Both the position numbers and the translations under genes were made by a program. Below, one piece after another: positions 6,056-18,969 of a stretch of 64,000 nt of DNA (positions are counted from its first letter, which is position 1; every line of letters begins with the position of its first letter). The stretch is from Cellulomonas chitinilytica (lineage in GTDB: Bacteria; Actinomycetota; Actinomycetes; Actinomycetales; Cellulomonadaceae). The notes below the pieces were generated by a model. That model worked only from the letters and a program-made list of their open reading frames with translations, ran no database searches and was not told the DNA's origin. The stretch lies in contig NZ_BONK01000003.1 of NCBI RefSeq assembly GCF_016862675.1, positions 310,001 through 374,000 of the forward strand, written 5' to 3'.

Positions 6056-6574
6056 GTGAGCATCGAGCCCCTGCGCCGCGACGTCGCCCCGGTCCGCCGG
6101 AGCCTCGCGGGGCACACCGTCCCGACCGTGAGGCGCGCCACCGCACCCCCCGGCCATCAGATGTGCGTCGTCGTGACCGACGTCGCCGACGGCGACGGGA
6201 CCGTGCTCGTGCGCAACCTGCGCCGCCGCGGGGCCCACCGTGTGGTGGTCCTCACACGGCGGGCGAGCCGGTCCGAGCTCGGGGTGCTCCTCGCGGGCGG
6301 CCTGCGTGGTGCGGTCGCCGGGATGACGGCGCCGAGCCTGCGCCGTGCGGTCGCCCCCCTGCCGCCGCGGCCGACGCTGCCGGAGCTGACCGCGCGGGAG
6401 ATCAGCGTGCTGCGCCACGTCGCCGACGGGTGCAGCAACCGCGCGATCGGTGACGAGCTCGGCCTGTCCGCCCTGACGGTGAAGAGCCACCTCGCCCGCA
6501 TCTCCCGCAAGCTGGGCACGGGCGACCGTGCGGAGCTCGTCGCGATCTCGATCCGTGCGGGCGTCATCGACTGA
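6056..6574 (+). CDS. Orphan LuxR/NarL-family transcriptional regulator
   Basis: A 172-residue regulator with a LuxR-type helix-turn-helix at about residues 108-165: LTAREISVLRHVADGCSNRA, then IGDELGLSALTVKSHLARIS and RKLGTGDRAELV, a good match to GerE-type DNA-binding domains. The N-terminal 100 residues hold strands such as QMCVVVTDVADGD and HRVVVLTRR, suggesting a shortened receiver-like fold, but the acidic pocket and a phosphoacceptor Asp are not clear. No kinase gene is adjacent. Start is GTG 6056, with an ATGGAT hexamer five bases upstream, so leaderless translation is possible. The frame is open far upstream inside DUF3000, but that part is a shadow of the neighbour. Targets are unknown. 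Confidence 0.8.
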   Translation: MSIEPLRRDVAPVRRSLAGHTVPTVRRATAPPGHQMCVVVTDVADGDGTVLVRNLRRRGAHRVVVLTRRASRSELGVLLAGGLRGAVAGMTAPSLRRAVAPLPPRPTLPELTAREISVLRHVADGCSNRAIGDELGLSALTVKSHLARISRKLGTGDRAELVAISIRAGVID

Positions 6575-6641: not shown

Positions 6642-7952
6642 ATGCAGCCCGACGTCTCCGCCGGCACCCCTGAGGCCGGCTCTCCCGAGGCCGTCGACCT
6701 CGACGCCGGTTCCCCCGACGCCGAGGCCGACCAGCCGACGGTGCCGGACGTCACCCCGCTGACGGAGCCCGCCGACGGCATCCCGCCCGTGGTGGACACG
6801 CCGGAGGCGCTCGCCGAGGTCGTCGCGGCGTTCGGCGCCGGGACCGGGCCCGTGGCCGTGGACGCGGAGCGCGCCTCGGGCTACCGCTACGGGCAGCGCA
6901 CGTACCTCGTGCAGCTGCGCCGCGAGGGAGCGGGCACCGCGCTCATCGACCCTGTCGCCCTGCCGGACCTGTCGGCGCTGTCGGACGCGCTCGTCGGCGT
7001 GGAGTGGGTGCTGCACGCCGCGTCGCAGGACCTTCCCGGGCTGGTCGAGCAGGGCATGCGGCCGACCCGGATCTTCGACACCGAGCTGGGCGCCCGCCTG
7101 CTGGGCATGGAACGGGTGGGGCTCGCGGCCGTCGTCGCCGACGCGCTGGGCCTCGGGCTCGCCAAGGAGCACTCGGCGGTCGACTGGTCGACGCGCCCGC
7201 TGCCCGCCGACTGGCTGCGGTACGCCGCGCTGGACGTCGAGGTGCTCGTCGAGCTGCGCTCGGTCCTCGCGGAGCGTCTGGCGGTGGCCGGCAAGGCGGA
7301 GTGGGCGGCCCAGGAGTTCGAGGCGGTGCGCTCGGCTCCCCCGGCGCCGGCCCGGGTGGACCCCTGGCGCCGCGTGTCCGGTCTGCACACGATCCGGGAC
7401 GCCCGTCGCCTCGCGGTGGTGCGTGAGCTGTGGCTGACCCGCGACCAGAACGCCCGCCAGCGCGACATCTCGCCCGGGCGCGTCCTGCCCGACGCGGCGA
7501 TCGTCGCGGCGGCCCAGGCCCTGCCGCGGTCGGTCCCGGCGCTGACGGCCCTGCCTGCGTTCTCCGGCAAGGGCACCCGGCGTCGGGCGACGCTGTGGCA
7601 GCAGGCGATCGACCGCGGGCTCGCGGTCCCCGACAGCGAGCTGCCGTCGGTGCGCGGCCCGAAGAGCGACGCTCCCCCGCCGCCGCGGGCCTGGGCGGAG
7701 AAGGACCCGGCGGCCGCGGCGCGGCTGACGGCAGCCCGGGACGTGGTCGCGGACCTGTCCTCGACGTACACGGTCCCGGCGGAGAACCTGCTGCAGCCCG
7801 ACCTGCTGCGGCGGCTGTGCTGGACGCCGCCGGCGTCGCTGGACGCCGCGTCGATCGCCGAGTTCCTGCAGGCCGGCGGCGCGCGACCGTGGCAGGTGGA
7901 GCTCGTCGCGGACCGCGTCGCGGCGGCTTTCGAGGCGTTGCCGACAGCCTGA
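6642..7952 (+). CDS. rnd: Ribonuclease D-like exonuclease with HRDC domain
   Basis: A 436-residue 3'-5' exonuclease of the DEDD superfamily. After an acidic, low-complexity N-terminal 45 residues come exo motif I VAVDAERASGYRYG (Asp and Glu metal ligands), motif II around VLHAASQDLPGL, and motif III LRYAALDVEVLVELR with Tyr and Asp. An HRDC domain follows (RLAVVRELWLTRDQNARQRD with GRVLPDAAIVAAA). RNase D trims 3' ends of tRNA precursors and other structured RNAs. It corresponds by position to Rv2681. The -10 hexamer 7 bases before the ATG supports the start. Downstream, the conserved backbone is interrupted by the accessory beta-oxidation and pfl block. Confidence 0.92.
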   Translation: MQPDVSAGTPEAGSPEAVDLDAGSPDAEADQPTVPDVTPLTEPADGIPPVVDTPEALAEVVAAFGAGTGPVAVDAERASGYRYGQRTYLVQLRREGAGTALIDPVALPDLSALSDALVGVEWVLHAASQDLPGLVEQGMRPTRIFDTELGARLLGMERVGLAAVVADALGLGLAKEHSAVDWSTRPLPADWLRYAALDVEVLVELRSVLAERLAVAGKAEWAAQEFEAVRSAPPAPARVDPWRRVSGLHTIRDARRLAVVRELWLTRDQNARQRDISPGRVLPDAAIVAAAQALPRSVPALTALPAFSGKGTRRRATLWQQAIDRGLAVPDSELPSVRGPKSDAPPPPRAWAEKDPAAAARLTAARDVVADLSSTYTVPAENLLQPDLLRRLCWTPPASLDAASIAEFLQAGGARPWQVELVADRVAAAFEALPTA

Positions 7953-7993: not shown

Positions 7994-8023
7994 CTGGCAA
8001 GGGACCTAGGTCCCGGGTAGCGT
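7994..8023 (+). promoter_or_regulatory. Probable promoter of the beta-oxidation operon
   Basis: CTGGCA (4/6 match to TTGACA) at 7994-7999, an 18-base spacer and TAGCGT at 8018-8023. The predicted start is near 8030, leaving a leader of about 78 bases that ends in the GGAGG ribosome site at 8098-8102. Confidence 0.45.
8001..8014. promoter_or_regulatory. Perfect 14-base palindrome GGGACCTAGGTCCC (operator candidate)
   Basis: The palindrome lies within the spacer between the -35 and -10 of the operon promoter, a position typical of repressor operators. Half-sites GGGAC and GTCCC four bases apart also match the geometry of mycobacterial DosR boxes; see the findings. Confidence 0.55.
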
Positions 8024-8107: not shown

Positions 8108-9370
8108 ATGCCGACCGCATCCGCACGTCCTGCACCCCGCGTCCGCCGCGTCGTGTTCGTCGACGGGGTCCGCACCCCGTTCGGCCGCGCCCGCAAGGAC
8201 GGCATCTACGCGCACACCCGCGCCGACGACCTCGCGGTCAAGACCGTCCGCGAGCTGTTGCGGCGCCACCCGGAGCTCGCACCGGAGCGCATCGACGAGG
8301 TCGCCATCGCGGCCACGACGCAGCAGGGCGACCAGGGCCTCACCCTGGGCCGCACCGTCGGCGTCCTCGCCGGCCTGCCGCGCACGGTCCCCGGGTACGC
8401 CGTGGACCGGATGTGTGCCGGTGCGATGACCGCCGTGACGAACGTCGCCGCCGCGATCGGCGTCGGTGCGCAGGACGTCGCGCTCGCCGGCGGTGTCGAG
8501 CACATGGGGCACCACCCGATGGGCTTCGACGCCGACCCCAACCCGCGCTTCCTGTCCGAGCGGCTCGTCGCGAACGACGCGCTCAACATGGGCGTGACCG
8601 CCGAGAACCTGCACGACCGCTTCCCCGCGCTGACCCGTGAGCGCGCCGACGCGTACGGCGTCGCCAGCCAGGACAAGTACGCCGCCGCGCTCGCCGCCGG
8701 GAAGATCGACCCCGACCTGGTCCCCGTCGCGCTGCGCGACCCGGAGCACGGCTGGGGCCTGGCCACCGCCGACGAGCCGCCCCGCCCGGGCACCACGGTC
8801 GAGGCGATCCAGAAGCTCGCGACGCCGTTCCGTCCCGGCGGCCGCGTCACGGCCGGCACCGCCGCCCCGCTCACCGACGGCGCCGCCTCGTGCCTGCTCG
8901 CCGCGGAGGACACCGCCGCCGAGCTCGGCCTGCCGACGCGCATGCGGATGGTCTCGTTCGCGTACGCCGGCGTGGAGCCCGAGATCATGGGCATCGGCCC
9001 GGTCCCGGCCACCGTCAAGGCGCTCGAGCGCGCCGGCCTGACGATCGAGGACATCGGCCTGTTCGAGATCAACGAGGCGTTCGCCGTGCAGGTGCTCGCG
9101 TTCCTCGACGCGTTCGGCATCGCGGACGACGACCCACGCGTGAACCCCTACGGCGGTGCGATCGCCGTCGGGCACCCGCTCGCCTCGTCGGGCGTCCGCC
9201 TCATGACGCAGCTCGCCCGCCAGTTCGAGGAGCACCCCGAGGTCCGGTACGGCCTGACGACGATGTGCGTCGGGCTCGGCCAGGGCGGCACCGTCATCTG
9301 GGAGAACCCGCACCACCCCGACTACGAGCCGACGGTCGGCCCGACCGACATCGAGGAGGACGCGAAGTGA
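8108..9370 (+). CDS. fadA: Acetyl-CoA C-acyltransferase (thiolase, FadA type)
   Basis: A 420-residue thiolase that cleaves 3-ketoacyl-CoA to acetyl-CoA and a shortened acyl-CoA, the last step of beta-oxidation. The nucleophilic Cys103 is in VDRMCAGAMTAVTN; the catalytic His is in FEINEAFAVQ and GGAIAVGHPLASSG; the second Cys is in TTMCVGLGQGG. ATG 8108 has GGAGG 5-6 bases upstream. The stop overlaps the start of fadB by four bases (GTGA), so the two subunits of the trifunctional-like complex are probably made in balance. The promoter upstream carries a perfect palindrome in its spacer, suggesting repression when fatty acids are absent, but no dedicated repressor gene is adjacent. Confidence 0.95.
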   Translation: MPTASARPAPRVRRVVFVDGVRTPFGRARKDGIYAHTRADDLAVKTVRELLRRHPELAPERIDEVAIAATTQQGDQGLTLGRTVGVLAGLPRTVPGYAVDRMCAGAMTAVTNVAAAIGVGAQDVALAGGVEHMGHHPMGFDADPNPRFLSERLVANDALNMGVTAENLHDRFPALTRERADAYGVASQDKYAAALAAGKIDPDLVPVALRDPEHGWGLATADEPPRPGTTVEAIQKLATPFRPGGRVTAGTAAPLTDGAASCLLAAEDTAAELGLPTRMRMVSFAYAGVEPEIMGIGPVPATVKALERAGLTIEDIGLFEINEAFAVQVLAFLDAFGIADDDPRVNPYGGAIAVGHPLASSGVRLMTQLARQFEEHPEVRYGLTTMCVGLGQGGTVIWENPHHPDYEPTVGPTDIEEDAK

Positions 9371-11505
9371 CCGCGACGACCGACACCGCCGCTGCTCCGC
9401 GCGCCGAGCGCGTCACGCACGCCCACGTCCGCGACGTCGCGCTGCCCGGCGGCGCCGGGACGCTCGCGCTCGTGACGATCGACAACGGCCTCGACCACAC
9501 GAAGCCGTCGACGCTCGGCCCGCTCGGCATGGCCGAGCTCACCGCGGCGCTCACCGGCGTCCGGGACCGGGTCGCGGCGGGCGAGCTCGTCGCCGTCGCG
9601 GTGACCGGCAAGCCGTACTTCCTGGCGGCCGGCGCCGACCTCACACAGGCCACCGCGCTGACGGGCCGCGACGCCGCGCTCGAGCTCGGTCGCGGCGGGC
9701 ACACCGCGTACGCGCTGCTGCAGGACATGGGCGTGCCGACGTTCGCGTTCGTCAACGGCGTCGCGCTCGGCGGCGGTCTCGAGCTCGCGCTCAACTGCCA
9801 CTACCGCACCGCGGCGTCCGACGTGCGGGCGCTCGCGCTGCCGGAGACCGGCCTGGGCCTCGTACCCGGCTGGGGCGGCGCGTATCTCGTGCCGCGGCTC
9901 GTCGGCGTGGAGAAGGCGCTCGACGTCATCCTCACGCGTCCGGCCGCGAACAAGCCGTACTCGGCGACGGAGGCGGCCTCGATCGGGCTCGTCGACGTCG
10001 TGCTCGACCCGGCCGACTTCCTCGAGGAGTCGATCCGGTGGGCGGCGCGCGTCGTCGCCGGCGAGGTCGTCGTGGAGCGTCGCCCGCTCGACCCGGCCCC
10101 GGTGTGGGACGGCGTCGTCGCGGCGGCCCGGCAGCGGCTCGACGCGGTGATCCACGGCTCGCGACCGGCGCCGTACCGCGCGCTCGACCTCGTCGCCGCG
10201 GCGCGGGACGCCGACCGTGACTCGGCGTTCGCCGCGGAGGACGAGGCGCTCGCCGACCTGCTCATGAGCGACGAGATGCGCGCGTCGGTGTACGCGTTCG
10301 GTCTCGTCTCGGGCGGCAAGCGTCCCGTCGGGGCGCCCGACCGGTCGCTCGCCCAGCCCGTGACCCGGGTCGGGATCGTCGGCGCCGGCCTCATGGCCGC
10401 ACAGATCGCGACGCTGTTCGCGCAGCGGCTCGGCGTGCCGGTCGTCATGCGGGACCTCGACGAGGAGCGCGTGGCCAAGGGCCTCGAGGCGGTCCGGTCG
10501 ACCGTGGAGCGCCTCACGTCGACCGGCCGGATGAGCGAGGCCGCCGGTGCGCGCCTGCTCGGGTCGGTGCACGGCACCACGGACCTGAACGAGTTCGCGT
10601 CGTGCGACCTCGTCATCGAGGCGGTCACCGAGATCCTCGACCTGAAGAAGCGCGTGTTCGCCGAGCTGGAGACCGTCGTCTCCCCCACGACGATCCTCGC
10701 GACGAACACGTCCGCGCTGTCGATCACCGCGATGGCGGCGGACCTGCAGCACCCGGAGCGCGTCGTCGGGCTGCACTTCTTCAACCCCGTCGCCGCGATG
10801 CCGCTCGTCGAGGTCGTGCAGGCGGAGCACACGTCGCTGGAGGCGCTCGCCACCGGGTTCGCCGTCGTGTCCAAGCTGCGCAAGACGGCGGTGCTCGTGG
10901 CCGACCGGCCCGGCTTCGTCGTCAACCGGCTGCTCGTGCTGCTGCTCGGCGTGATCGTCGACGCCGTCGAGCACGGCACCCCGGTGGAGGTCGCCGACCG
11001 CGCGCTGCGGCCGCTCGGGCTCCCGATGCCGCCGTTCGAGCTGTTCGACCTCGTCGGTCCGGCGGTCGGCCTGCACGTCCTCACGTCGCTGCGCGAGGAC
11101 CTCGGCGACCGGTTCCCCCGGTCCCCCGGGCTCGAGAAGCTGGTCGCCGACGGGACGCGCGTCGTTCTCCCCGCACCCGCCAAGGGCCTGCCGAAGCCCG
11201 TCGACCCGGCCATCCAGGCCGTGTTCGACGACGCCCGCGAGGGCGCGGTGTCCGGCACGCCGCTCGACGAGGCGGGGGTGCTCGACTCCGTCCTCACCGC
11301 GCTCACCGTCGAGGTGGGCCACATGCTCGACGAGGGCGTCGTCGCCACGCCGCAGCAGATCGACCTGTGCATGATCCTCGGCGCCGGGTGGGGCTTCCAC
11401 CTCGGCGGGATCACGCCGTACCTGGACCGCACCGGGTACTCCGAGAAGGTCCTCGGGCGCCGCCTGCTCCCGGACGGCGTCGCGAACGTCCCCGCCGCCG
11501 GCTGA
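9367..11505 (+). CDS. fadB: Multifunctional enoyl-CoA hydratase / 3-hydroxyacyl-CoA dehydrogenase (FadB type)
   Basis: A 712-residue fusion. The N-terminal crotonase domain (about residues 15-250) shows ALGGGLELALNCHYR and LPETGLGLVPGWGG, carrying the two catalytic glutamates. The NAD-binding 3-hydroxyacyl-CoA dehydrogenase domain begins at VGIVGAGLMAAQIATLF near residue 336 and includes LHFFNPVAAMPLVEVV with the catalytic His; C-terminal dehydrogenase domains follow (DRPGFVVNRLLVLLLG, FELFDLVGPAVGLHV). It hydrates trans-2-enoyl-CoA and oxidises L-3-hydroxyacyl-CoA, feeding the FadA thiolase. Length matches the family. GTG 9367 overlaps the fadA stop. A strong hairpin follows the stop. Confidence 0.95.
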   Translation: MTATTDTAAAPRAERVTHAHVRDVALPGGAGTLALVTIDNGLDHTKPSTLGPLGMAELTAALTGVRDRVAAGELVAVAVTGKPYFLAAGADLTQATALTGRDAALELGRGGHTAYALLQDMGVPTFAFVNGVALGGGLELALNCHYRTAASDVRALALPETGLGLVPGWGGAYLVPRLVGVEKALDVILTRPAANKPYSATEAASIGLVDVVLDPADFLEESIRWAARVVAGEVVVERRPLDPAPVWDGVVAAARQRLDAVIHGSRPAPYRALDLVAAARDADRDSAFAAEDEALADLLMSDEMRASVYAFGLVSGGKRPVGAPDRSLAQPVTRVGIVGAGLMAAQIATLFAQRLGVPVVMRDLDEERVAKGLEAVRSTVERLTSTGRMSEAAGARLLGSVHGTTDLNEFASCDLVIEAVTEILDLKKRVFAELETVVSPTTILATNTSALSITAMAADLQHPERVVGLHFFNPVAAMPLVEVVQAEHTSLEALATGFAVVSKLRKTAVLVADRPGFVVNRLLVLLLGVIVDAVEHGTPVEVADRALRPLGLPMPPFELFDLVGPAVGLHVLTSLREDLGDRFPRSPGLEKLVADGTRVVLPAPAKGLPKPVDPAIQAVFDDAREGAVSGTPLDEAGVLDSVLTALTVEVGHMLDEGVVATPQQIDLCMILGAGWGFHLGGITPYLDRTGYSEKVLGRRLLPDGVANVPAAG

Positions 11506-13743: not shown

Positions 13744-14640
13744 TCAGTAGACCGTGAGCCCGTGGTCGCGGAACTGCCCGCGCACGCGTTCGACCAGCTC
13801 GGGCGTCGGCGGCTGGGTCTCGTCGAGCTCGTAGCGCATCCCGAGCTCCTCCCACTTGTCGCGGCCCATCTGGTGGAAGGGCAGCACCTCGACGCGGGTG
13901 ACGGCGCCACCGAGCGACGCGACGTACGCGGCGACGCGCTCGACGTTGTCCTCCTCGTCGGTGAGCCCGGGGACCAGCACGAAGCGCACCCAGATCTCGG
14001 TGTCGCCACGACCGGCGATCCGGCGGCCGAAGTCGAGCGTCGGCTGCAGCTCCCGCCCCGTCACGCGACGGTAGGCGTCGGGGTCGCCCGACTTGACGTC
14101 GAGCAGGACGAGGTCGACGTCGTCGAGCATCTCGTCGGTGCACGCCGAGCCGAGGAAGCCGGACGTGTCGATCGCCGTGTGCACGTCCATCGCCTTCGCG
14201 CCGCGCAGCAGACGGCGGACGAACGCGGGCTGCATGAGCGGCTCGCCGCCGGAGATCGTCAGGCCGCCGCCGGTGGCCTTCATGACGCCGCGGTAGCGGG
14301 CGACCCGGCGCAGGATCTCGTCGGCGGCGACGTCGGTGCCGCGGCGCATCTCCATCGTGTCGGGGTTGTGGCAGTACAGGCACCGCAGCGGGCAGCCGGC
14401 GAGGAACGTGGTCATCCGCGTCCCCGGGCCGTCGACCGCGGTGACGAGCTCCCACGAGTGGACCGAGCCGATCTCGCCGGACCGGACGGCGGCGAACCGC
14501 TGCGACCGTGCCCGCTCGTCGTCGACGGCCAGGCCCTCGGTGCCCGCACCGGAGACGCGACCGAGCGCCCCGCCGACGAGCGGCATGCCGAGCGGCACCA
14601 CTGGTGCGCCGGTCTGCCGCTCGTCGGTCGCGGTGCTCAT
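13744..14640 (-). CDS. pflA: Pyruvate formate-lyase 1-activating enzyme
   Basis: A 298-residue radical-SAM activase. The iron-sulfur cluster motif CPLRCLYC places the three cysteines at 83, 87 and 90; GGGLTISGGEPLMQ is the SAM-binding segment, and DLVLLDVKSGDPDAYRRVTG and VLPFHQMGRDKWEELGM are typical of PflA. It generates the glycyl radical on PflB using S-adenosylmethionine and an electron donor, only under anaerobic conditions. An N-terminal stretch of about 50 residues precedes the core and is longer than in E. coli PflA; it may be genuine or reflect a start further downstream. The gene lies 51 bases after pflB and is probably co-transcribed. Confidence 0.95.
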   Translation of the reverse strand: MSTATDERQTGAPVVPLGMPLVGGALGRVSGAGTEGLAVDDERARSQRFAAVRSGEIGSVHSWELVTAVDGPGTRMTTFLAGCPLRCLYCHNPDTMEMRRGTDVAADEILRRVARYRGVMKATGGGLTISGGEPLMQPAFVRRLLRGAKAMDVHTAIDTSGFLGSACTDEMLDDVDLVLLDVKSGDPDAYRRVTGRELQPTLDFGRRIAGRGDTEIWVRFVLVPGLTDEEDNVERVAAYVASLGGAVTRVEVLPFHQMGRDKWEELGMRYELDETQPPTPELVERVRGQFRDHGLTVY

Positions 14641-14691: not shown

Positions 14692-16965
14692 TCAGACCGC
14701 GCCGTGGAACGTGCGGGACAGCACGTCGAGCTGCTGCTCCCGGGTGAGCCGCACGAAGTTCACCGCGTACCCGGAGACCCGGATGGTGAGCTGCGGGTAG
14801 TTCTCCGGGTGCTCCATGGCGTCCAGGAGCGTCTCGCGGTTCAGCACGTTGACGTTCATGTGGTACCCGGAGGACAGGGTGTACGCGTCGAGCAGACCGA
14901 CGAGGTTCGTCACCTGCTCCTCGGGGGTCCGGCCGAGCCCGCTGGGCACGACCGAGGACGTCAGCGAGATGCCGTCCTGCGCCTCCGAGTAGGGCAGCTT
15001 CGCGACGGACAGCGCCGAGGCGAGCATGCCGTGCGTGTCGCGGCCGTTCATCGGGTTGGCACCCGGGGCGAACGGCTCGCCGAGGCGGCGGCCGTCGGGC
15101 GTCGAGCCGGTGGCCTTGCCGTAGACGACGTTCGACGTGATCGTCAGCACGGACTGCGTGTGCAGGGCGTTGCGGTACGTCGGGTACTGGCGGATCTTCT
15201 GCATGAACGTCTTGACGATCCACACGGCGATCTCGTCGGCGCGGTCGTCGTCGTTGCCGTAGGTCGGGAAGTCGCCGGTCACGCTGTACTCGGTGACGAG
15301 CCCGTCCGTGGTCCGCAGGCCCTTGACGGTCGCGTACTTGATGGCCGACAGCGAGTCGACGACGACCGACAGGCCGGCGATGCCGCAGGCCATCGTCCGC
15401 AGGATCTCGCGGTCGTGCAGCGCCATCTCGATGCGCTCGTAGGCGTACTTGTCGTGCATGAAGTGCACGCAGTTGAGCGCGTCGACGTACGTCTGGGCCA
15501 GCCAGTCCATCATCACGTCGAACTTCGCCATGACGTCGTCGTAGTCGAGGAGCTCGCCCTCGACGGGCGCGGCGACGGGTGCGACCTGCTTGCCGGAGAC
15601 CTCGTCGCGGCCGCCGTTGATCGCGTACAGCAGCGCCTTGGCGAGGTTGACCCGCGCGCCGAAGAACTGCATCTGCTTGCCGACCTTCATCGGCGACACG
15701 CAGCACGCGATGGCCGCGTCGTCGCCCCAGTCGGCACGGATGAGGTCGTCGGACTCGTACTGCACGGCGGAGGTGTCGATCGACACCTGCGCGCAGTACC
15801 GCTTGAAGCCCTCGGGGAGCTTGTCGCTCCAGAACACCGTCATGTTCGGCTCGGGGGCCGGGCCCAGGTTGTAGAGCGTCTGCAGGTACCGGAACGACGT
15901 CTTGGTGACGAGCGGCCGGCCGTCCTCGCCGATCCCGCCGATCGACTCGGTGACCCAGGTCGGGTCGCCGGAGAACAGCGCGTCGTACTCGGGCGTGCGC
16001 AGGAAGCGCACGATCCGCAGCTTGATGACGAAGTCGTCGACGAGCTCCTGCGCCTGCTCCTCGGTGAGGACGCCCGCCTCGAGGTCGCGCTGCAGGTAGA
16101 CGTCGAGGAACGTCGAGGTGCGGCCCAGCGACATCGCCGCGCCGTTCTGCTCCTTGACCGCGGCCAGGTACGCGAAGTACAGCCACTGCACGGCCTCACG
16201 GCCCGTGGTCGCCGGCCCGGAGATGTCGTAGCCGTAGGACGCGGCCATGGCCTTCAGCTCGCCGAGCGCGCGGATCTGCTCCGCGTTCTCCTCGCGGTCG
16301 CGGATGACGTCCTCGACGGAGCGCTCCATGTCGAGCTCGGCCCGCTCGAGCTTCTTCGCGGCGATCAGCGCGTCGACGCCGTACAGGGCGACGCGGCGGT
16401 AGTCGCCGATGATCCGGCCGCGGCCGTAGGCGTCGGGCAGGCCCGTGATGATGTGGCTGCTGCGCGCGGCCCGGACCGCCGGCGGGTACACGTCGAAGAC
16501 GCCGTCGTTGTGCGTCTTGCGGTACTTGCCGAAGATCTCGCCGACCCGCGGGTCGGGCTCGTAGCCGTACGTCTCGAGCGACTTCTCGACCATCCGGTAG
16601 CCGCCGTTGGGCATGATCGCGCGCTTCAGCGGCGCGTCCGTCTGGAGGCCCACGATGAGCTCGTTCGCCTCGTCGATGTAGCCCGGGGCGTGCGACGTGA
16701 TGGTCGACGGGGTGTGCTGGTCGACGTCGTAGACGCCCTTCTCGCGCTCGGCCGGGAACATCGCCGAGAGCCGGTCCCAGATGCCCGTCGTCCGGGCGGT
16801 CGGGCCTGCGAGGAACGCGCTGTCACCCTCGTACGGGGTGTAGTTGCGCTGGATGAAGTCGCGCACGTCGATGTGGTCCGCCCACGGACCCGACGTGAAA
16901 CCGCTCCAGGCGGCAGGCGTGGCGCTCGCGAGGTCCTCGCGGCTGTGGGCGGTGGTGGTCGACAT
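14692..16965 (-). CDS. pflB: Formate C-acetyltransferase (pyruvate formate-lyase)
   Basis: A 757-residue glycyl-radical enzyme that cleaves pyruvate with CoA into acetyl-CoA and formate. The thiyl pair Cys421-Cys422 lies in [12 protein letters not shown] and the radical glycine is Gly732 in RVSGYAVNF near the C-terminus; both fit the E. coli numbering (418/419 and 734) within a few residues. GAGGAG sits about 8 bases before ATG 16965. It is oxygen-sensitive in known cases and serves mixed-acid fermentation. The promoter region upstream has a readable -35/-10 and, directly upstream of the -35, a DosR/DevR-like box, so hypoxic induction is likely. It lies downstream of dxs on the same strand but with its own promoter. 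Confidence 0.97.
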
Positions 16966-16996
16966 CTTTGCTCCTCGTGGGGTGGTCGATAACCCG

Positions 16997-17025
16997 ACGC
17001 TATGAAGCAAATGATGGGATGTCTT
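16997..17025 (-). promoter_or_regulatory. Promoter of pflB
   Basis: Minus strand: AAGACA (17025-17020, 4/6 to TTGACA), a 17-base spacer and TAGCGT (17002-16997). The predicted start is near 16990, giving a leader of about 25 bases with a GAGGAG ribosome site. Confidence 0.5.
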
Positions 17026-17039
17026 AGGACCTTCGACCC
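17026..17039. promoter_or_regulatory. DosR/DevR-like box AGGACCTTCGACCC at pflB
   Basis: Matches most of the mycobacterial hypoxia box core (GGGACTTNNGNCCC, from memory) at 12 of 14 positions counting N as match. It abuts the -35 and is centred near -42 from the predicted start, the usual place for an activator. Confidence 0.5.
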
Positions 17040-17091: not shown

Positions 17092-18969
17092 TCAGACGGC
17101 CTTCCCGAGTGCAGTCAGCACGTCCCGGGCCACATCCTCGGGGCGCAGCCGCAGGGTGCCGACGAGCTGCTCCCGGGTCGCGTGGTCGAGGAACTGGCGT
17201 GGGATCCCCACGGCCTGCACCGCCGTCGAGATACCCGCCTCGCGGCAGCGCTGCCCGACGAGCGCGCCGACCCCACCGTCGACCACGCCGTCCTCGATCG
17301 TCACGGTGTGGTCGTGCTCCCCGACGAGCTTGGTGAGCGCTGCGGGGACCGGCATGACCCAGCGCGGGTCGACGACGGTGGCGCGCAGCCCGTGCGCGGC
17401 GAGGATCTCGGCGGTCCGCAGCGCGGTGGACGCCATCGCACCGACGCCGACGACGAGCACGGACGGCCCCTGCCCGCCGTGCCGGGCGAGGACGTCGACA
17501 CCGTCCACGTCCTCGAGCGACGGGATCTCGTCGCCCATCGCACCCTTGGGGTACCGCACCACCGTGGGGGCGTCGTCGACGTCCACCGCCTCGCGCAGCG
17601 CGACGCGCAGCGTCTGCTCGTCGCGGGGCGCCGCGAGGCGCAGGCCCGGCACCACACCGAGCATCGCCATGTCCCACATCCCGTTGTGGCTCGCGCCGTC
17701 GTCGCCGGTGAGCCCGGCCCGGTCCAGCACGAACGTGACGCCGGCGCGGTGCAGGGCCACGTCCATGAGCACCTGGTCGAACGCGCGGTTCAGGAACGTC
17801 GCGTAGACGGCCACCACGGGGTGCAGCCCGCCGAAGGCCATGCCCGCGGCCGACGTCGCCGCGTGCTGCTCCGCGATGCCGACGTCGAACACCCGCTCGG
17901 GGAACTCCTCGGCGAACGGGGCGAGCCCCACGGGCTGGAGCATCGCCGCGGTGATCGCGACGACGTCCTTGCGGCGCCGGCCGATCCGCACGATCTCGTC
18001 GGCGAACACGCTCGTCCACCCGAACCGCGACGGCGCGAGGGGCAGCCCCGTCTCGGGGTGGATCCGCCCGACCGCGTGGAACCGGTCGGCGATGTCCTGC
18101 TCGGCCGGCGTGTACCCGCGGCCCTTCTCGGTGATGACGTGCACGATGACCGGCCCGCCGAACGCCTTCGCCCGGACGAGCGCGCGCTCGACGGCAGGCT
18201 CGTCGTGCCCGTCGACCGGTCCGACGTACTTGATGCCGAGGTCCTCGAACATGCCCTGCGGCGCGACGACGTCCTTGATGCCCTTCTTCAGGCCGTGCAG
18301 CGCGTCGTACGCCATCCGGCCCGGCGTCCCGGAGCGCCGCAGCGTGCGCTTGCCCCAGGACAGGACGTTCTCGTACCCCTGCGTCGTGCGCAGCGTGTCG
18401 AGGTGGTGCGCGAGGCCACCGATCGTCGGCGCGTACGACCGGCCGTTGTCGTTGACGACCACCACCAGCCGGCGGTCCTGGCCCGCCGCGATGTTGTTCA
18501 GGGCCTCCCACGCCATGCCGCCGGTGAGGGCGCCGTCGCCGATCACGGCGACGACGGAACGATCCCCGCGACCCTGCAGCTGGTTCGCCTTCGCGATGCC
18601 GTCGGCCCAGCTCAACGCGGTCGACGCGTGCGAGTTCTCGACGACGTCGTGCTCGGACTCGGCGCGGCTCGGGTAGCCCGACAGGCCGCCCTTGCGGCGC
18701 AGCTGCGAGAAGTCGGAACGCCCGGTCAGCAGCTTGTGCACGTACGCCTGGTGGCCGGTGTCGAAGACCATCGTGTCGAGCGGCGACTCGAACACGCGGT
18801 GCAGCGCGATGGTGAGCTCGACGACGCCGAGGTTCGGTCCGAGGTGACCGCCCGTGCGGGAGACCTGCTCGACGAGGAACGTGCGGATCTCGTCCGCGAG
18901 GTCCTGGACCTGGCGGGGGGTGAGCGCGCGCACGTCGGCAGGCGACCCGATGCTGTCGAGCTGTCCCAT
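17092..18969 (-). CDS. dxs: 1-deoxy-D-xylulose-5-phosphate synthase
   Basis: A 625-residue thiamine-diphosphate enzyme, first step of the MEP pathway: pyruvate plus glyceraldehyde 3-phosphate give DXP and CO2. Signatures are [21 protein letters not shown] at the N-terminus (split here: [20 protein letters not shown]), the TPP-Mg motif [24 protein letters not shown], and in the transketolase-like middle domain [15 protein letters not shown] with the catalytic Glu. ATG 18969 is preceded by GAAGGAGG, an excellent ribosome site. Corresponds in gene order to Rv2682c. A TAGAGT -10 lies about 65 bases upstream, divergent from the guaB1 promoter. DXP feeds isoprenoids, and a polyprenyl synthase occurs later in the window. 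Confidence 0.97.

Follow-up and report, generated by a model that had tools for sequence, protein, structure and literature searches.

Most work on DosR concerns its role as a dormancy regulator in obligate aerobes, and in mycobacteria dosR and dosS form one operon. In enterobacteria pyruvate formate-lyase (Pfl) is controlled by FNR and ArcA, with oxygen-dependent activation. The start-proximal Dev boxes of mycobacteria commonly overlap the -35 element (PMC3029386). For the OsdR-OsdK system of Streptomyces coelicolor and S. lividans (SCO0204/SCO0203), the site GGGACCTTCGGCCC is listed at narG2, SCO0167 and SCO5979, and 20 of the 22 genes in the span SCO0198-SCO0219, which includes SCO0206, are described as controlled from sites near osdR; in its accessible part, the site table of that paper has no entry for SCO0206 itself, and cydA and nrdD are absent from it (PMC5069765). 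In S. lividans, a putative pyruvate formate-lyase (SCO0206) and an activase fragment have been reported to be co-expressed with OsdR (PMC6302529, Table 2). A literature search by title among open-licence PMC papers found none dealing with a DosR regulon of Cellulomonas.

In this study, a DosR-type box upstream of pflB of Cellulomonas was followed up. The initial annotation had suggested that a DosR-type circuit reaches pyruvate formate-lyase outside the mycobacteria. This is supported by our analysis, but because the OsdR-co-expressed pfl of S. lividans had already been described (PMC6302529, Table 2), the Cellulomonas box extends a known kind of circuit. The type of site is the same as that of OsdR-OsdK; however, the Streptomyces pfl gene lies in the osdR island, whereas the Cellulomonas pflB, which is next to pflA, lies on a different contig from dosR. 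The likeness to the enterobacterial FNR/ArcA system is confined to the oxygen-dependent activation of pyruvate formate-lyase that is proposed here; the regulators and their sites are unrelated.

The pflB promoter and its box

The window, i.e., the whole stretch of 64,000 nucleotides that was analysed, corresponds to G000:C3:310001-374000 of a 4.9-Mb genome. Its pflB and pflA genes match equivalog models, and the upstream neighbour of pflB is dxs (NCBIfam). Among the named matches listed, the window pflB is nearest to that of Cellulomonas septica (91%). According to the gene calls of this analysis, the box sits inside the 126-bp gap between dxs (stop at 17092) and pflB; its plus-strand reading is AGGACCTTCGACCC. 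The promoter had been described as AAGACA, a 17-nt spacer and TAGCGT on the minus strand, with the box abutting the -35 and centred near -42, and all of these coordinates proved exact. With -12 taken as the first base of the -10, the box extends from -49 to -36 around a centre at -42.5, and 31 nt separate TAGCGT from the ATG of pflB at 16965. Compared with the genus consensus GGGACNNNNGTCCC, the window box has two mismatches. The proposed DosR-like core is borne out by its conservation in the genus, whereas the window copy is a weak, degenerate form of the consensus.

Table 1. Features of the pflB locus, the second window box and the candidate regulatory genes
Feature	Position	Strand or arrangement	Basis
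DosR-type 14-mer box GGGTCGAAGGTCCT	17026..17039	-	window sequence; position kept in 69/69 main-copy genus pflB upstreams
-35-like AAGACA, abuts box	17020..17025	-	sequence; mean 1.91 bits, n=66 aligned genus promoters
-10-like TAGCGT (actinobacterial TANNNT)	16997..17002	-	sequence; box-to-10 spacing 23 nt in 66/69, 24 nt in 3/69
Predicted transcription start (A)	near 16990	-	inferred, counted from -10
GAGGAG, ribosome-binding site of pflB	16971..16976	-	sequence
pflB, formate C-acetyltransferase, 757 aa	14692..16965	-	TIGR01255, 1160 bits (cut-off 994.2); translation
pflA, pyruvate formate-lyase-activating protein, downstream of pflB	13744..14640	-	TIGR02493, 297.6 bits (cut-off 231.75)
Second window box GGGACCTAGGTCCC, both half-sites exact	8001..8014	+	pattern search
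Thiolase and fadJ/fadB-like pair	8108-9370, 9367-11505	downstream of box 8001-8014	gene calls, NCBIfam
DosR-like regulator gene	G000:C2:376211-376882	convergent with kinase	phmmer, Pfam
GAF-type DosS-like kinase gene	G000:C2:374299-376191	convergent with regulator	Pfam domains

The centre of the second window box lies 100 nt upstream of the start of the thiolase and fadJ/fadB-like gene pair, and no TANNNT was found 21-25 nt after it. A second pflB of the same genome (G000:C2:275089-277320, 84% identical) has no box.

Conservation within and outside Cellulomonas

A pflB relative was found in 77 of the 80 genus genomes searched. We fetched 83 genus pflB upstreams, and 69 of them were counted as main copies (at least 83% identity). 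Four second copies (L169, L170, L202, and L203), nine remote paralogues (66-75% identical) and L214, a likely further second copy with no box of the pflB layout, were left out of this set. Gene fragments, matches truncated at a contig edge, and matches of 43-49% identity were excluded, and L208, which holds the first half of the gene, was kept. Within 250 nt, the best match to GGGACN4GTCCC had exact half-sites in 39 of the 69 upstreams, at most one mismatch in 60, and at most two in all 69, where shuffles give 0.13, 2.8, and 24.9, respectively. A box followed after 22-24 nt by TANNNT was present in 69 of 69 (0.15 expected from shuffles), although such genus counts are not independent because the genomes share ancestry. 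The retention of the 14-mer upstream of pflB in relatives, on which the initial annotation had staked its proposal, was therefore seen in every main copy, and at a fixed distance from the -10.

The 66 promoters with the 23-nt spacing comprised 64 distinct 40-mers. Information per position was 1.35 and 1.66 bits in the two half-sites, 0.69 bits in the 4-nt centre and 0.09-0.17 bits in the 30 nt upstream; the upstream flank has thus diverged while the dimer site has not. At genus pflB promoters the box abuts the -35-like AAGACA, making it a start-proximal box at -35. A box with at most one mismatch was found at none of the four second pflB copies and at four of the nine remote paralogues.

Two further elements were observed at these promoters. 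At pflB, the stretch AAGACATCCCAT between the box and the -10 is conserved to the same degree as the box; its window equivalent is AAGACATCCCATCA (17012-17025, minus strand). Upstream of the box, a palindrome GTGAN6TCAC of the CRP/FNR/GlxR type occurs with at most one mismatch in 41 of 69 upstreams (1.7 in shuffles), for instance in L149 and L151-L157, and is absent from the window (L081). In 35 of the 41 its start precedes the box by 23, 32-33 or 43-44 nt, positions that differ by steps of 10-11 bp, as if on one helix face.

For cydA and nrdD in the genus, 30 of 43 and 29 of 29 match rows were read, respectively. A box with at most one mismatch was found in 25 of the 30 cydA upstreams (2.0 expected) and in 22 of the 29 nrdD upstreams (1.2 expected). 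All 25 box-bearing cydA upstreams have TANNNT 22-24 nt downstream of the box, the same geometry as at pflB; AAGACA is not shared with pflB at the cydA promoters, and no -35 was identified there. The five genomes with no such cydA box (G005, G018, G021, G023, and G039) are exactly those among the 30 in which the best DosR is at most 81% identical, the other 25 having a DosR of at least 83%; since the five may be one clade, few independent events stand behind this covariation. These genomes retain their pflB boxes, in part as variants. At nrdD the covariation fails: G026, G033, and G035 have a DosR of 86-88% and no nrdD box, and G018 and G023 carry an nrdD box with one mismatch despite a DosR of at most 81% identity.

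Beyond the genus, 80 loci were considered, of which 36 from other Actinobacteria and 26 of 40 from non-Actinobacteria were used; four from Cellulomonas were set aside, and the 14 unused ones were Clostridia-type loci and one Bacillus locus. A box with at most one mismatch was present at pflB in 13 of the 36 other actinobacterial upstreams (1.5 expected) and in none of the 26 non-actinobacterial ones. A DosR-family match (E<=1e-40) was detected in 33 of the 35 searchable actinobacterial genomes outside Cellulomonas. All 13 close-box genomes fall within these 33, and neither of the two genomes with no match (L010 and L012) has a close box. The presence of a DosR relative is not enough to predict the box, however, because a close pflB box is missing from 20 of the 33 genomes with a match. 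The DosR-like proteins of Jonesia and Georgenia are 77-78% identical.

Other motifs were noticed in some of these upstreams. Four pflB loci with no close DosR box, from Microbacterium, Isoptericola, and Agromyces (L008, L011, L012, and L053), carry TGGTCAGACCA or TGGTCTGACCA, which suggests a swapped regulator. Three Streptomyces pflB upstreams (L021, L028, and L031) contain TTGTGAA-N4-TTCACAAG besides DosR-like boxes, an arrangement that we take to resemble a Rex operator.

Candidate regulator, kinase, and further sites

The genome has 36 GerE matches, and 30 of these loci were fetched. A DosR-like regulator gene and a DosS-like kinase gene were identified, with 19 nt between their stops. The regulator has Response_reg and GerE domains (Pfam), and its best solved match is DevR of M. 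tuberculosis (3c3w, 175 bits), followed by VraR (134 bits, phmmer). In NCBIfam no model scored above its cut-off for this protein, the nearest being NarL and MadR. The EKTVKN motif of the recognition helix makes DNA contacts; this helix and the phospho-acceptor Asp align between the regulator and DevR, and among 15 aligned DosR-like sequences of the genus EKTVKN is present in 14 and EKTIKN in one. The kinase has the architecture GAF-GAF-HisKA_3-HATPase_c (Pfam). Among solved structures it best matches the GAF domain 2vzw, an entry whose name says no more than probable histidine kinase; DevS GAF entries come next, and its ATPase-domain matches include DevS and DosT. The HPPM segment, which carries the haem-pocket His, aligns as well. 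By its domains and HPPM segment the protein is of the DosS/DosT type and a putative haem sensor.

A regulator match at E<=1e-55 was found in 76 of the 80 genus genomes, G005 passing this threshold only through a 49% identical protein. Proteins of 48-49% identity are also present in G021 and G023. In G021, G023, and G005 there is no dosR beside cydA, and the 48-49% type is located elsewhere in the genome; these proteins resemble canonical DosR and adjoin a DevS-like GAF protein. The incomplete genomes G062 and G063 gave no regulator match at 1e-28.

The system resembles DosRS/DevRS of M. tuberculosis in having a NarL-family regulator nearest to DevR among solved structures, a GAF-GAF-HisKA_3 kinase with DevS among its nearest solved relatives, a box at -35 and universal-stress genes among the likely targets. 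Unlike the mycobacterial operon, the Cellulomonas pair is convergent, and its likely targets include pflB, cydA, nrdD, and alcohol dehydrogenases. A further difference is that no autoregulatory box with at most one mismatch was found in the sequence scanned near the predicted starts of dosR and dosS, so that autoregulation of dosR is not supported; two-mismatch matches alone were seen, at L201:10899 and 11043 near dosR and at 7930 near dosS, the start of which is uncertain.

The LuxR gene at 6056-6574 of the window had been mentioned as a possible regulator. It is an unlikely one, as the protein has 172 aa according to our gene call and a SALTVKSH helix instead of EKTVKN. The gene was rejected as a candidate: its NCBIfam matches span residues 87-172 only, the best reaching 53 bits against a cut-off of 300.

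Exact GGGACN4GTCCC sites number 28 in the genome, and the reversed pattern 4. The other spacers from 1 to 9 gave 117 sites over eight spacers, a mean of 14.6 (28 vs. 14.6, Poisson p=0.0012). The genes at these sites come from a codon-usage caller made for this analysis, not from a published one. Of the 28 exact sites, 18 are intergenic, whereas non-coding sequence makes up about 10% of those loci; the excess is only borderline, because 5 of 15 sites with control spacers 5-9 are intergenic too (Fisher p=0.052). The centre lies 90-124 nt before the start of the gene to the right in 10 of the 18. TANNNT was found 21-25 nt after the box in only 4 of the 30 site-and-gene pairs examined, and the pflB/cydA geometry is therefore not general in this genome.

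Beside exact intergenic sites we found cydA, nrdD, a universal-stress gene, phosphoketolase, adhP, and GAPDH, as well as lipoyl synthase/flavodoxin, nrdI, feoA, and thiolases. Other neighbours have no evident oxygen link: genes of no known function, a glycosyltransferase, an M24 peptidase, a binding protein, an aminotransferase, SURF1, YwiC, and regulators. The near-exact site GGGACCTTCGACCC precedes lactaldehyde reductase, and another near-exact site precedes a gene of the pyruvate:ferredoxin-oxidoreductase family (incomplete in the fetched stretch, with a score under the NCBIfam cut-off). Boxes also stand upstream of two Usp genes (L111:9945 and L113:2607, one exact and one near-exact) and of alcohol-dehydrogenase genes of this genome. 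At L237:1531-1565, two boxes that start 21 bp apart (GGGACGGAGGTCCC, then GGGACCTCCGACCC) precede a gene for a 358-aa protein, an arrangement like tandem Dev boxes.

Interpretation and biological meaning

Judged from sequence, the geometry at pflB and cydA (centre at about -42.5, fixed -10 distance, poor or absent -35) appears to be of the class II activation type. The 14-mer is probably a DosR/DevR-type operator in the class II activator position of pflB(A), with a DosRS-type system activating pflB within an anaerobic/fermentative regulon. The sequences directly show the conserved box, its constant spacing from the -10 at pflB, the matching layout at cydA, and the existence of the regulator and kinase genes; the identity of the binding protein, activation over repression, and oxygen as the signal are inferred. 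A fall in oxygen would lead the DosS-like kinase to phosphorylate the DosR-like regulator, which would then occupy the box as a dimer and bring RNA polymerase to the weak AAGACA/TAGCGT promoter. Expression of cydA, nrdD, and the universal-stress and alcohol-dehydrogenase genes would likewise be activated by this regulator.

The conserved box could instead be bound by another NarL-family regulator with a similar helix, such as L179 or, where present, a canonical-type DosR, which we regard as unlikely. L179, another regulator of this genome, shares EKTVKN with the DosR-like regulator, and a six-frame scan found the pattern EK(T/S)VxN in 3 of the 30 fetched GerE loci (of 36). In addition, G021 and G023 have kept pflB boxes without the Cellulomonas-type DosR, their different DosR-like regulator being the one that adjoins a DevS-like GAF protein. 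Against this, the DevR score of L179 (110.9 bits) is barely above those for ChrA (105.8) and VraR (104.5), while almost all sampled genomes of the genus have the DosR-like protein, and the cydA box is missing in those where this protein has diverged.

A further reading, in which the box is just one part of a 43-nt block conserved as the core promoter of an alternative sigma factor or as the target of some other DNA-binding protein that reads AAGACATCCCAT, is quite improbable. AAGACA (1.91 bits) and TCCCAT (1.61 bits) are indeed as conserved as the half-sites, and the box-less second pflB copy L170 retains the stretch CATCCCATGA; yet the cydA and nrdD promoters have the box in common with pflB and AAGACATCCCAT was not seen at them, and conserved halves around a variable centre are expected of a dimer site. 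Chance, which at a genomic GC content of 73% should often produce a degenerate GGGACN4GTCCC, is ruled out for the pflB box by its position-specific conservation (69 of 69 vs. 0.15 expected) among 64 distinct 40-mers with unconserved upstream flanks, even though the 14-mer alone proves nothing, because in the window by itself the pattern with at most two mismatches is rarer than in shuffles and not above chance (77 matches vs. 115.6).

With the 14-mer read as a DosR-type operator, the conserved switch at a fermentation gene suggests that fermentation genes are turned on when oxygen runs out. We give even weight to a wider proposal: in Cellulomonas, and probably in Jonesia and Georgenia, the DosRS-type system could be the master switch for facultative anaerobiosis and take the role that FNR has in enterobacteria, acting on pyruvate formate-lyase, cytochrome bd, and anaerobic ribonucleotide reductase. 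In many species a CRP/FNR-family co-activator would assist it, bound upstream in helical phase. If this is true, the same DosR machinery would run the anaerobic growth of a facultative anaerobe, including its genes for fermentation, low-oxygen respiration, and anaerobic synthesis of DNA precursors, and a harmless, easily grown genus would become available for the study of DosRS signalling.
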